Below are positions 915 to 53,640 of a stretch of DNA of 64,000 bases, piece by piece. The first letter of the stretch is position 1. The number at the start of each line of letters is the position of its first letter. Below the pieces are notes generated by a model, which searched no databases, was not told the origin of the DNA, and saw nothing but the letters and a program-made list of their open reading frames with translations. Source of the DNA: Lachnospiraceae bacterium (GTDB lineage: Bacteria; Bacillota; Clostridia; Lachnospirales; Lachnospiraceae); assembly GCA_900168235.1 (NCBI GenBank), contig FUZG01000004.1, forward strand, positions 1-64,000, in the 5' to 3' direction. The position numbers and the translations under genes are program-made.

Positions 915-1045
915 TAGAAAAAAGGATTGATTCGATAGGGTGAAGCTCTCGCCGCCGTCTCTACGTCAATCCTTTTGACCGATCCGATAAGCTACTGTTT
1001 GGTGAAGCTCTCGCCGCCTCCCCTTCACTTATCTTCTCTTAAGTT
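915..1045 (-). ncRNA. Candidate small RNA with two identical hairpin loops
   Basis: Read on the minus strand, a good sigma-A promoter (1052-1080) fires into a ~130-nt segment without an open frame. It contains two consecutive hairpins: GATAAG/CTTATC (1033-1028 with 991-986) and an 11-bp stem (976-966 with 930-920). Each presents exactly the same 18-nt loop segment GGCGGCGAGAGCUUCACC (+ strand copies at 1001-1018 and 939-956), while the bases between stem and loop differ. The second stem ends in a U-rich tract (923-918) like an intrinsic terminator. Promoter, repeated loop and terminator together argue for an independent regulatory RNA. I do not recognise the family. Ends are estimates: start ~1045 from the -10 box, end ~915 from the U tract. 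Confidence 0.7.
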
Positions 1046-1051
1046 GAGTTA

Positions 1052-1080
1052 ATATTATCACACACATTCGTGATTGTCAA
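1052..1080 (-). promoter_or_regulatory. Promoter of the candidate small RNA
   Basis: On the minus strand: perfect -35 TTGACA (1080-1075), 17-bp spacer, -10 TAATAT (1057-1052). It lies downstream of the HPr-like gene and points at the double hairpin, so the RNA need not depend on that gene's transcript. Confidence 0.75.
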
Positions 1081-1755: not shown

Positions 1756-3150
1756 ATGTTTAATGTCTTCTCTGTTGGTGCTTCTTTTTTGGTTTATGTT
1801 CTTTCGACGTGGCATTATTATTTTAAGAACAGAAAAACTCCATTACGCTATTTAATGGCTCTTTTGGCAGGATTATTTTCCGGTCAGTTACTAATAAAGT
1901 TTTTCTCCCATTCTATTGTAGGGCTGTTGAATAATGCGGGGATTCAATATTCTTCCATGGCGATATTTTTTACGCTGGTAGTTGCAGGAATGGTTGCGAT
2001 CCCTGTGTTTGTGCTGCTATTCCAAAAGATTTTCGGGATTTCAACTTATGTTGAGACTATGATCCTGCTTGGAAGTCTTACTGCTCTTGGAAATTTTGCA
2101 GATACGGTTTCATATGGAAATATCATTCTTATGAACATCTGCATGTTCACCATATCTGTACTGAGCTACATATATACTCATAAGGATTTTGAAAAGCTCA
2201 TTGAAAATCTGCGAAACGGAGAAAAAGTGAATGGGCTTTCGGCGACAATCCTTATGTATGTCCTCACAGTTACTACATTACTATATAGTCTTGTCTTTTC
2301 TGTGTACGGGAACATATTTTTTGCGAGAAGCGATTTTGGTATCAGCGCAGCAGTTGTAACCTGCTCTATTGCCGGTATCTGCACATATTTCTTTTCTGTA
2401 AGACAGTTGATAAGGATATTGAACGGTTCCATTGAAAATGATCGTCTGAATCATGAGATACATGAAGCGGATACCCGTCTTATCAAGGGAAAGCAGAAGA
2501 TGCTGGATTCCCAGGAGAGTGTGATCGCTGCATTTGCGGATATTCTCGAGAATAAATCCGGTGAATCCGGCGGACATGTAAAGAGAGTAGCGCTTTACAG
2601 CGAGATACTTGCGGAAGAAATGGGGCTTTCAGAGGAAAAAGTACATATAATTAAGATCGCATCCATGATGCATGATGTTGGTAAGATACTTGTTCCAAAT
2701 GAGATTTTGGAGAAAAAGGGTCGATTCACGTATGAAGAACGTGAGGCGATGAAGCTTCATGTGGATTACGGTGACAGGATCCTCGGTGGTGCAAAGGGTG
2801 AGATCATGACAGCAGCCCGCAATATCGCTAAGGAACATCATGAAAGATGGGATGGCAAAGGTTATCTTTATGGCTTATCCAAAGATGAGATTTCTATTGA
2901 GGCTCAGATAGTCTCCGTTGCTGATGTATTTGATGCTCTTACAAGCAAACGATGCTACAAGGATGCGTGGGATATTAAGAGTTCATACAGGGAAATCGTG
3001 GATGGAAGCGGTACACAGTTTTCTCCTGCGGTTGTAGAAGCATTTAAGAAGGGATTTGATCGTTTCAGAGAGGTAATGATCAGTAATCCTGATGCGCAGG
3101 GAGATACGGAAGCCGTATTTAAGGCATTAAACAACACTATAGCTTCATAA
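1756..3150 (+). CDS. Membrane-bound HD-GYP domain protein
   Basis: A 464-residue protein. The N-terminal half (to residue ~225) is hydrophobic, with about six to seven membrane segments and no familiar sensor signature. A short linker leads to an HD-GYP domain, a class of cyclic-di-GMP phosphodiesterase acting in the cytoplasm. Visible metal-site motifs: GHVKRVA (~272), MMHDVGK (~304), HHERWDG (~360). The signature GYP reads GYL in WDGKGYLYGL, and the later DVFDALTSKR is intact, so activity is plausible but not certain. The frame is open back to 1648, but that part does not look like protein; ATG 1756 starts at the hydrophobic region, though its ribosome site (AAGGGTAG) is weak. It is a stand-alone gene with its own terminator. 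Confidence 0.85.
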   Translation: MFNVFSVGASFLVYVLSTWHYYFKNRKTPLRYLMALLAGLFSGQLLIKFFSHSIVGLLNNAGIQYSSMAIFFTLVVAGMVAIPVFVLLFQKIFGISTYVETMILLGSLTALGNFADTVSYGNIILMNICMFTISVLSYIYTHKDFEKLIENLRNGEKVNGLSATILMYVLTVTTLLYSLVFSVYGNIFFARSDFGISAAVVTCSIAGICTYFFSVRQLIRILNGSIENDRLNHEIHEADTRLIKGKQKMLDSQESVIAAFADILENKSGESGGHVKRVALYSEILAEEMGLSEEKVHIIKIASMMHDVGKILVPNEILEKKGRFTYEEREAMKLHVDYGDRILGGAKGEIMTAARNIAKEHHERWDGKGYLYGLSKDEISIEAQIVSVADVFDALTSKRCYKDAWDIKSSYREIVDGSGTQFSPAVVEAFKKGFDRFREVMISNPDAQGDTEAVFKALNNTIAS

Positions 3151-3210: not shown

Positions 3211-3948
3211 TCATTTATTCGCAGATGCCCGGAGAAATTCTGCGGTACGTTCACTTTTGGGATTCATAAAAATCTCTTCGGGAGTACCTTCTTCTTCGAT
3301 GCGTCCTTTATCCATAAATACAACTCTGTCAGCCACATCGCGTGCAAAATTCATTTCGTGTGTCACAACGATCATTGTGAGACCGTCATTTGCGAGTTCC
3401 TTCATGATATTCAGAACTTCACCGACCATTTCGGGGTCAAGAGCAGATGTGGGTTCATCAAACAGCATGAGTCTCGGATTCATGCAGAGTGCGCGGGCAA
3501 TGGCTACACGCTGTTTCTGTCCGCCGGATATCATACGTACATCAGCATTTGCAAATTGGCGCATACCAACTTTCTCAAGGAAGGTCAGTGCATTTTTAAC
3601 GGCTTCTTCACGGGAAATCTTCAAAACCTTCATCTGAGGTTTCACGCAGTTATCCAGAACGTTCATATTGTTAAACAGGTTAAACTGCTGGAAGCACATG
3701 CCGACCTTGGCACGGTAGGCATTTATATTCTTGTTATGCAGGATATCTTCGCCAAAGACGTTGATCATTCCGCTGTCTGCTTTTTCTAAAAGGTTGATGC
3801 ATCGGAGGAGAGTTGATTTGCCGGAACCGGAGCTTCCGATGAGGCATACAACTTCACCTTCGTTCACGGAAAAATCCACACCTTTCAGGACTTCAAGAGC
3901 ACCGAAGCTCTTGTGTATATCTTTGATCTCTACTATTGGTGCAGTCAT
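3211..3948 (-). CDS. Amino acid ABC transporter ATPase (probably lysine)
   Basis: A 245-residue ATPase of the polar amino acid uptake family (GlnQ/HisP type). It powers import across the cytoplasmic membrane. Seen: Walker [11 protein letters not shown]-loop CFQQFNLF, signature ISGGQKQR, Walker [13 protein letters not shown] and switch His VTHE. The start is taken at ATG 3948, 8 nt after AAAGGAGT; an ATG 36 nt upstream has no site and lies inside the permease gene. It overlaps nothing but follows the permease with only a few bases between. It is the last gene of the importer operon, whose lysine riboswitch indicates lysine or a related basic amino acid as substrate (inference). Confidence 0.93.
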
Positions 3949-3955
3949 TTCCGGG

Positions 3956-4723
3956 TTACTCCTTTCCAATCTTTTTCTCTGCATAACCGATGGTTCTGGG
4001 ATCCGTGTCGCTCATTGGAAGAGTGAGAGATACGGTCTTATTCATGTTTTTCTCTATGCGGTTCAGGATGAGACTCGCGATAGAAGTCAGGATAAGGTAT
4101 ATCAGCGCTTCCAGGAAATATGTCTCAGTGAAGTGGAAGGTTGAACCTGCAATACTTTTTGCCTGAAACATGAGCTCTGTTATGGAGATGATCATGAGAA
4201 CAGAGGAATCCTTGATATTTACGATAAACTCGTTTCCGATGGCAGGAAATGCATTTCTGATCGCCTGAGGAAGGATTACCGTAAACATAGTCTGACTATT
4301 GGACATACCGAGAGAGCGTGCCGCCTCAGTCTGCCCCGGATCAACTGCCTGTATTCCTGCACGGACTATTTCTGCCATGTATGCGCCGGTATTTATGCTG
4401 ATAACGACGATGGCGGCGGTGAGCTGATTCCAGTGAATGATATTTAAGAGGGCATAGTATATAAATACAGCCTGTACCATCATTGGTGTACCGCGAAAAA
4501 TCGTGATATAGATATTTGCGAGTACGTCAAAGAAGGTTTTGATGGCTCTGGCAGCTGCTCCGGTGGTGAAGTCAAGCTTTACCGCGCGGAAACCGCCTAC
4601 CAGAAGTCCGAGGATAAGTCCCAGTATTGTTCCGGTGAGCGCAACAACAAGTGTCGTGCGCACACCGAGCATCAGGCTGGAACCATATTTTGATAAGATT
4701 TCAATGCAGTTTGCAATAAACAT
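3956..4723 (-). CDS. Amino acid ABC transporter permease (probably lysine)
   Basis: A 255-residue membrane protein of the HisMQ/GlnP permease family. It shows about five membrane segments and the cytoplasmic EAA loop that docks to the ATPase, here [12 protein letters not shown] followed by [15 protein letters not shown] single permease gene means the channel is probably a homodimer. The ATG lies 2 nt after the stop of the binding-protein gene and no clear ribosome site precedes it, so translation is probably coupled to that gene. Middle gene of the riboswitch-controlled operon. Confidence 0.93.
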
Positions 4724-5687: not shown

Positions 5688-5699
5688 GTACATCCATAT

Positions 5700-5860
5700 A
5701 ATAATAGCGCCACTTCGTAAGAAGGAGTGATACAGATATTTTCTGCATCCCCACGACACGATCCCGCCGGATCGTCCCGTTCGGCGATGGTTACCTTTCA
5801 TTCGTTTCAAAGCCCGCCGGCTCCGCGAATTACTCATTTACATCGCTACCTCTATTGCTT
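5700..5860 (-). promoter_or_regulatory. Lysine riboswitch (L box)
   Basis: The minus-strand leader carries the conserved lysine aptamer pieces in order: AGAGGTAGCGATG near the 5' end, then TGAAAGG, then TCGCCGAA, and a P4-like hairpin GATGCAG/CTGTATC followed by a P5-like stem. P1 closes with AATAG near 5855 and CTATT near 5706. Spacing and order match the L box of Firmicutes lysine genes. A promoter lies directly upstream and a terminator directly downstream. It should switch the importer operon off when lysine is plentiful. Confidence 0.85.
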
Positions 5861-5871
5861 TTATGTGTAAA

Positions 5872-18950: not shown

Positions 18951-18975
18951 GGAGTGTGAAATATCACAAAATATT

Positions 18976-19062
18976 GCCTCCCTACGCCGGCATTATCCGG
19001 TTCAGGTGTTGAGGGTCCCGGAATCAGGTCTGATTCGGGTCTCAGCAAAAGCTCCCCTGGCA
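18976..19062 (-). promoter_or_regulatory. TPP riboswitch (THI box)
   Basis: On the minus strand the leader holds the conserved TPP aptamer pieces in order: CCAGGGGAGCTTTTGCTGAGA, GACCC, ACACCTGAACCGGATAATG and CCGGCGTAGGGAGG. It precedes a thiamine transporter gene, so high TPP should lower transporter synthesis. Confidence 0.97.
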
Positions 19063-19100
19063 TCGGCACGTAAGAACGTGCATTAATTTTTACACAATAC

Positions 19101-53340: not shown

Positions 53341-53463
53341 ATAAAAACTTCGTAATTTAACGAATCATTTGAGGCGTGAGCGGCATAAAATTGTCCTGTA
53401 TTGTACTTTTGTCAGAACAATTAAAAAATTGCCAACTTGCGCCTCGATTTTTGATAACATGAT

Positions 53464-53640
53464 GTAAGGGTTTCAAGCTCAAAGGTCGTTCGTGCTTGCA
53501 CGAAAAGAGCTTTGAATTTGAAAGCCGCCAAACACGAGCAAGAAGCGTGAAACGCGTATTGCGAGTTTTTGCAGAATTGCGTCAGCAATTCGTGACATCA
53601 GTAAGGGTTTCAAGCTCAAAGGTCGTTCGTGCTTGCACGA
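53464..53640 (+). repeat. 40-bp direct repeats in hairpin-rich intergenic region
   Basis: The 338-bp gap 53341-53678 has two exact 40-bp copies (53464-53503, 53601-53640; GTAAGGGTTTCAAGCTCAAA...), each ending in the hairpin TTCGTGC-TT-GCACGA. Between them are other inverted repeats, such as AATTGC-GTCA-GCAATT (53574-53589). After the second copy the sequence runs into GGAGGACATAAG. It looks like a dispersed non-coding element or two tandem copies of one. Confidence 0.8.

Follow-up and report, generated by a model that had tools for sequence, protein, structure and literature searches.

Near the start of the 64,000-nt stretch of Lachnospiraceae DNA analyzed here (the window), one 18-nt sequence, GGCGGCGAGAGCTTCACC, occurs twice on the minus strand within two stems of unlike sequence, which raises the question of what kind of gene carries the same short sequence on two different stems and what the repeated part does. 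The initial annotation had read the locus as a stand-alone small RNA, a decoy or a base-pairing RNA, in which the 18 nt form an open loop that is the functional part.

A candidate small RNA gene next to an HPr-like gene

Both copies of the 18-mer, at 1018-1001 and 956-939 (minus strand), were exact as first described, and with up to three mismatches the 18-mer was found in the window at those two sites only, compared to a chance expectation of 0.04; two copies arose in 0 of 100 shuffles. The near-ideal promoter sequence noted upstream was also confirmed. An exact consensus -35 hexamer, TTGACA (1080-1075, minus strand), is followed after a 17-nt spacer by the -10 hexamer TAATAT (1057-1052), giving 10 of 12 consensus matches over 1080-1052, with three promoter-like sites in the region compared to 0.9 in shuffles. 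From this promoter we infer a transcript of approximately 130 nt (1045-912, minus strand), starting about 7 nt past the -10 hexamer and ending past the U tract.

Within the putative transcript, hairpin 1 (1033-986, minus strand) has the outer stem GATAAG/CTTATC and, by comparative alignment, carries a bulged-hairpin element at its apex, i.e., the first 18-mer copy (1018-1001; GG C G GC GAGA GC UU C A CC), while hairpin 2 (976-920, minus strand), drawn from the fold and the alignment, is built on the outer stem AAAAGGATTGA/TCAATCCTTTT and carries the second copy (956-939). Model R2 scores the two copies at 39.2 and 38.9 bits, respectively, values that are not independent since both copies contributed to the alignment of that model. 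Hairpin 2 closes with a run of six T (923-918, minus strand), the U tract of a presumed intrinsic terminator for which this hairpin would double; in 13 loci, its outer stem has 98.5% paired cells, and both partners have changed in 4 of its 10 pairs. A terminator scan called none at the window locus; it takes loops of 3-8 nt only, and the apical domain of hairpin 2 is larger. Altogether, the two stems differ and the second has a U-rich end, as had been reported, and the locus looks like a stand-alone, non-coding small RNA gene of Lachnospiraceae.

The window gene is flanked upstream, on the same strand, by a gene for an HPr-like protein of 79 aa (1367-1128; PF00381, E 0.0011, under the curated cut-off), and on its other side by a tRNA cluster behind the end of a 23S rRNA. 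The order of HPr-like gene and then RNA is the same in the congeners G014 and G031 (L037 and L039). A small HPr-like protein, recognized by reading and without a full Pfam match, is also encoded approximately 1.2 kb from the RNA at L264 of G408. Elsewhere in the window, a Clostridiales-1 RNA (RF01699; 87 bits) lies at 53460-53600 on the plus strand, and Lysine and TPP riboswitches lie at 5697-5862 and 18962-19068, respectively, both on the minus strand.

Structure and covariation of the repeated element

Comparison across relatives makes a folded hairpin of the form NNYGGC-NNN(N)-GCUUCANN, bulged by two U, a better description of the shared 18 nt than the open loop first assumed. The consensus element, RRYGGC-N3-4-GCUUCAYY with the UU bulge, has short internal loops on its flanks, together with another short helix. 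Paired positions of the 18-mer vary in congeners and paralogs, in which GG..CC is replaced by GA..UC or GA..UU, and GC-GAGA-GC by GC-GAAA-GU; YY covaries with RR, indicating that the stem is kept and not its letters.

Covariation of the stems, a check that the initial annotation had proposed, was determined in two alignments. In the two-stem alignment of 13 loci, 8 pairs changed on both sides, and the covariation score was 0.239 compared to 0.155 when shuffled; one measure went against this, the number of further pair types being 19 compared to 23.1, below all shuffles. In the single-hairpin alignment, which covers 47 distinct copies, both partners changed in 6 of 8 pairs and 91.8% of cells were paired, with a covariation score of 0.420 compared to 0.217 when shuffled; none of 500 shuffles reached 0.420, and the score was at most 0.128 when slid.

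A larger set of 74 distinct copies was gathered with the model from the 47-copy alignment and was hence selected and aligned in its favor; in this set, the UU bulge and an A at column 25 were each present in 73 copies. Column pair 14-21 was GC in 66 copies, AU in 6, and GU in 2, pair 15-20 was CG in 72 and UA in 2, and pair 13-24 was GC in 71 and AU in 3, while column 25 faced column 12 as U-A in 49 of the 74 copies and as C.A in 24. The apical loop took 14 forms in the same copies (GAGA, GAU, GUGU, GAGU, GAAG, and nine others) and began with G in 68. The earlier proposal that the loop is the functional part of a base-pairing RNA is not supported by this pattern, in which bulge and pairing are conserved and the loop is what varies.

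The structural case rests on comparison, not on folding energy. As a single sequence, the window RNA has only a modest advantage in predicted folding over its shuffles (z -1.66; 9 of 200 as good), and its copy 1 favors a different hairpin with a 7-nt loop, as is also seen in L037; copy 1 of L042 likewise folds differently. When seven sequences were folded, the GC-GAGA-GC core was predicted in 11 of their 14 hairpins and missed in 3, including window copy 1. Pairing alone hardly tells the strand, with 345 of 376 cells paired as given compared to 336 of 376 on the opposite strand; thus, the strand was called from the promoter and U tract.

Paralogs, relatives, and their genomic context

In the source genome (3.79 Mb), there are five exact copies of the 18-mer, spread over three loci that are each a twin structure, with a degenerate first copy at the third locus, and the window gene is one of three paralogs. 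The hairpin model at E<=1 gave eight matches in this genome, six of them in the three RNAs and the other two at E 0.3 and 0.7. A promoter-side 23-nt box, AATTGTATNTACTTTTATACTTG, is common to the window gene's two paralogs with one mismatch each (C8:115807-115829 and C25:29129-29151), and with up to three mismatches this box was found nowhere else in the source genome.

Among 48 genomes of the genus, model R1 detected the RNA in 6, with 15 loci in total, including three in the source genome, four each in G014 and G031, and two in G009; at the level of the order, 6 of 392 genomes had it, every one from the family of the window, and none was dropped. With model R2 at E<=0.001, hairpin matches were obtained in 19 of 397 family genomes, and 10 of these genomes were accepted; the nine dropped genomes had one match each of 23-26 bits, eight of these in ORFs, and G409 was kept with a single intergenic hairpin of 32.8 bits behind TTGACA (L247/L275). 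In the class, 11 of 391 genomes matched model R2, and the five accepted are all of the window's family, while the six out-of-family genomes, each with a single match of 23-30 bits that in five cases lies in an ORF, were dropped. Carriers that could be named are Lachnospiraceae NK4A144, MC2017, and JC7, Oribacterium P6A1 and C9, and the MAGs RUG411 and RUG214; one further carrier is a MAG titled Bacteroides, with the same model scores as G336:C19. These carriers are a lower bound, because the contig pattern scan, whose pattern misses triloops in the second copy, yielded at least 119 stretches, of which 80 were searched as loci with model R1 (8 matched at E<=0.01).

The relatives are predicted to repeat the same bulged hairpin one to five times per RNA. 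Accepted relatives mostly have 2-5 hairpins, usually approximately 45-90 nt apart, and G409 seemingly has one. Conservation of the repeated element in relatives, on outer stems of unrelated sequence, is what a decoy would be expected to show. G408 has five copies of a version with three hairpins (L262 and L263) at 166-187 kb of contig C2, and two of these copies are shortened. These G408 copies sit among NERD-, AbiH-like, TIR-like, and helicase-like genes, named by reading their sequences.

Signals of a gene were counted at 26 loci, a set that excludes L275 and L276, has L263 twice, and is not fully independent. At 14 of the 26 loci, the best-scoring promoter candidate was an exact TTGACA located 38-74 nt ahead of the first hairpin, while at 9 the best promoter score was no better than in shuffles (p 0.48-0.99). 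A run of at least five T within 70 nt downstream was present at 18 loci and absent from 8, an uncontrolled count. The element is mostly intergenic: at the 22 multi-hairpin loci, 10 of 52 hairpins lie inside ORFs that reach 80 aa or more, and each such ORF is short (83-110 aa), compared to 13 of 17 single weak matches, which lie in ORFs of 127-711 aa.

Other loci have unrelated neighbors, including genes for citrate synthase, ABC transporters, a chemotaxis receptor, and a glycoside hydrolase, and the downstream genes are mixed, at many loci on the opposite strand. When the 50 nearest ORFs (at least 75 aa) from 26 loci that are not fully independent were collected and 40 of them scanned with Pfam, no partner protein was identified and no neighbor gene family was common to most loci. 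Orthologous loci retain the same neighbors in several congeners.

Comparison with known RNAs and possible modes of action

Consistent with the initial view that no known family fits, nothing in Rfam covered the element at curated cut-offs when the window and relatives were scanned. Matches to tsr25 (11.7 bits compared to a cut-off of 63) and to SNORD51 and ZFAT-AS1_1 (under curated cut-offs) at or near the element were discarded as chance. The element is not reported in titles and abstract openings of the literature on Lachnospiraceae small or structured RNAs (supplements excluded), and a literature search for the element sequence found no papers. By these scans the element belongs to no Rfam family, and its predicted repeated-hairpin plan resembles that of CsrB and of ANTAR-sequestering RNAs.

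TwoAYGGAY RNA (RF01731) consists of two hairpins, as does the RNA predicted here. Unlike a member of that family, which PMC2864571 presents as a candidate RNA of Clostridiales and others, the element is adjoined and not covered by RF01731 model matches in L069 and L270, and none lies over the window element. Two TwoAYGGAY RNAs stand beside the relative at L270 of G371, at 2528-2684 (minus strand) and 3850-4003 (plus strand), one of them approximately 140 nt from the last hairpin of the relative. EutV is sequestered by the RNAs Rli55/EutX, which are grouped here with the ANTAR dual-hairpin antiterminators. Two tandem hairpins of one kind are read by one protein in ANTAR antiterminators, whose substrate definition, as given in PMC3369931, calls for hexanucleotide loops with A at position 1 and G at position 4. 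The RNA studied here has two tandem hairpins of one kind as well, but its apical loops are variable, 3-4 nt long, and closed by C-G (72 of 74 copies) or U-A (2 of 74), and most loci do not have the look of regulated-operon leaders. CsrB/CsrC/RsmY-type sponges are stand-alone RNAs repeating one small hairpin, in the account given in PMC7652899, and here too one small hairpin is repeated on otherwise unrelated stems. However, CsrA sites have GGA in the loop, whereas GGA was found in 0 of 74 apical loops, and the conserved part here is the UU bulge. CsrA is present in 39 of 48 congeners compared to 6 of 48 for the RNA, a distribution that does not track the RNA, and a CsrA sponge was set aside as unlikely, on loop sequence and distribution. 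Because the repeated-hairpin plan is shared but the loop features of both systems failed, the element was not filed as a CsrB or ANTAR member.

The reading we favor, with a probability of roughly one in two, is that the RNA acts in trans and offers its repeated bulged hairpins to an RNA-binding protein, much as CsrB offers its own to CsrA. A sigma-70-type promoter would make a non-coding RNA of approximately 130 nt with two stems, each displaying the hairpin RRYGGC-NNNN-GCUUCAYY with its two-U bulge and the second doubling as the terminator. A sequence- and shape-specific Lachnospiraceae RNA-binding protein would recognize the UU bulge and its neighbors, and the RNA would act in trans by titrating or docking that protein, the more strongly the more hairpins are present (2-5 in most relatives, with congeners having as many as four genes per genome). 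Near-invariant parts are the bulge, the A that faces U or C, and the closing pairs, while the loop and the outer stems vary, which suggests a protein reading a bulged helix and not a seed. Of the two functions first proposed, the decoy is in line with repetition on unrelated stems, while base pairing via an open loop is not supported. As a counter-point to a sponge, target mRNAs carrying the same element were not found in the source genome; candidate mRNA leader copies of the hairpin there were none of them convincing, and other genomes have weak single hairpin matches, e.g., G009:C91 (E 0.004).

Lachnospiraceae are major rumen and gut bacteria in which post-transcriptional regulation is little known. 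If this reading is true, they would have an RNA family titrating a regulator, and riboregulation could be modeled in a testable way in bacteria for which the genus examined yielded no Hfq. The hairpin is well defined, covaries, and recurs one to five times per RNA, so that it offers itself as bait for the partner and would supply Rfam with a clean new family.

An explanation that we consider unlikely, yet the strongest of the competing ones, is a set of redundant base-pairing small RNAs in which the GCUUCAYY strand or an A/C-rich 5' tail would open and pair with mRNAs near ribosome sites. LhrC of Listeria exposes a conserved unpaired seed. According to the respective papers, both LhrC (PMC4132741) and FopS of Bacteroides (PMC11697453) are present as several near-redundant paralogs per genome, and FopS exposes a conserved unpaired seed (PMC11697453). 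Several paralogous genes per genome with a common promoter-side sequence are likewise seen here, a feature of known multicopy families; the GCUUCA strand hardly varies, and several paralogs share the 5' stretch AUCACCAACAAACAG or near variants. However, the conserved part here is a covarying structured hairpin: the conserved strand sits in the covarying stem with only two U free, its YY varies together with RR, and the window group and more distant relatives have other 5' tails.

A search for complements near start codons, which the initial annotation had suggested, was run in the source genome. Complements to 12 nt of the element with up to one mismatch numbered 39, of which 6 were in the RNAs; the 33 complements of TGAAGCTCTCGC outside RNA genes compare to 10 for a reversed control, an excess that would favor pairing and behind which coding bias is likely. 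Among 24 of these 33 that were inspected, none was located where the longest sense ORF begins, and 3 lay 18-23 nt upstream of a candidate internal start that has a Shine-Dalgarno-like sequence, all three inside longer sense ORFs (392, 232, and 518 aa). Hfq was detected in 0 of 48 congeners, including 0 of 22 of high quality; an Hfq-dependent small RNA was rejected on this ground, and the result also counts in favor of the protein-binding reading and against base pairing. Many Gram-positive small RNAs work without Hfq.

A scaffold or ligand-binding RNA, in which the bulged hairpin would be a ribonucleoprotein docking site or a small-molecule pocket and not a sponge, is doubtful. The element is compact and highly conserved, with a bulge and short internal loops, and its copy number varies as scaffold modules may, but no effector gene recurs beside the loci examined, and the mixed downstream genes, often on the opposite strand, argue against a cis-acting riboswitch. 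Mobile or repetitive, REP-like DNA that happens to fold is very improbable: although the cluster of copies in G408 and the nearly equal pairing on both strands would fit it, orthologous loci with the same neighbors exist in several congeners, the outer stems differ in sequence yet remain paired, many copies are bordered on one strand by promoter-like and U-rich sequences, nothing similar to the window copy turned up in phage or plasmid records, and 22 viral contigs holding the pattern gave no model match below E 0.5, the last two results being those on which a phage or plasmid decoy was rejected.

A more specific form of the protein-binding reading, to be held tentatively, is a CsrB-like system with an unrelated RNA-binding protein that recognizes the UU-bulged hairpin and is possibly tied to c-di-GMP and motility genes. 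Domains linked to c-di-GMP, HD_5 and PilZ included, were found in five neighbor ORFs at 4 of 26 loci, a post hoc count without a proper control and not one we build on: GGDEF at L264, EAL-GGDEF and HD_5 at L267, FIST-GGDEF at L096, and PilZ at L273. The neighbor at L265 is a chemotaxis receptor, and in the window an HD_5 protein is encoded one gene further out. GGDEF is common in carriers, with 39 matches in the source genome and 12-51 in 12 genomes.

Two further observations concern individual carriers. G014 and G031, with four RNA copies each, have a second, divergent CsrA-like gene (44-46 bits; G014:C7:105222 and G031:C23:23248), and the source genome has one CsrA only. Downstream of the RNA, a good ribosome site precedes a very short ORF at L096 (after 1869; MGPTDQ, followed by an ABC transporter) and at L247 (after 1535; MEEPGK).
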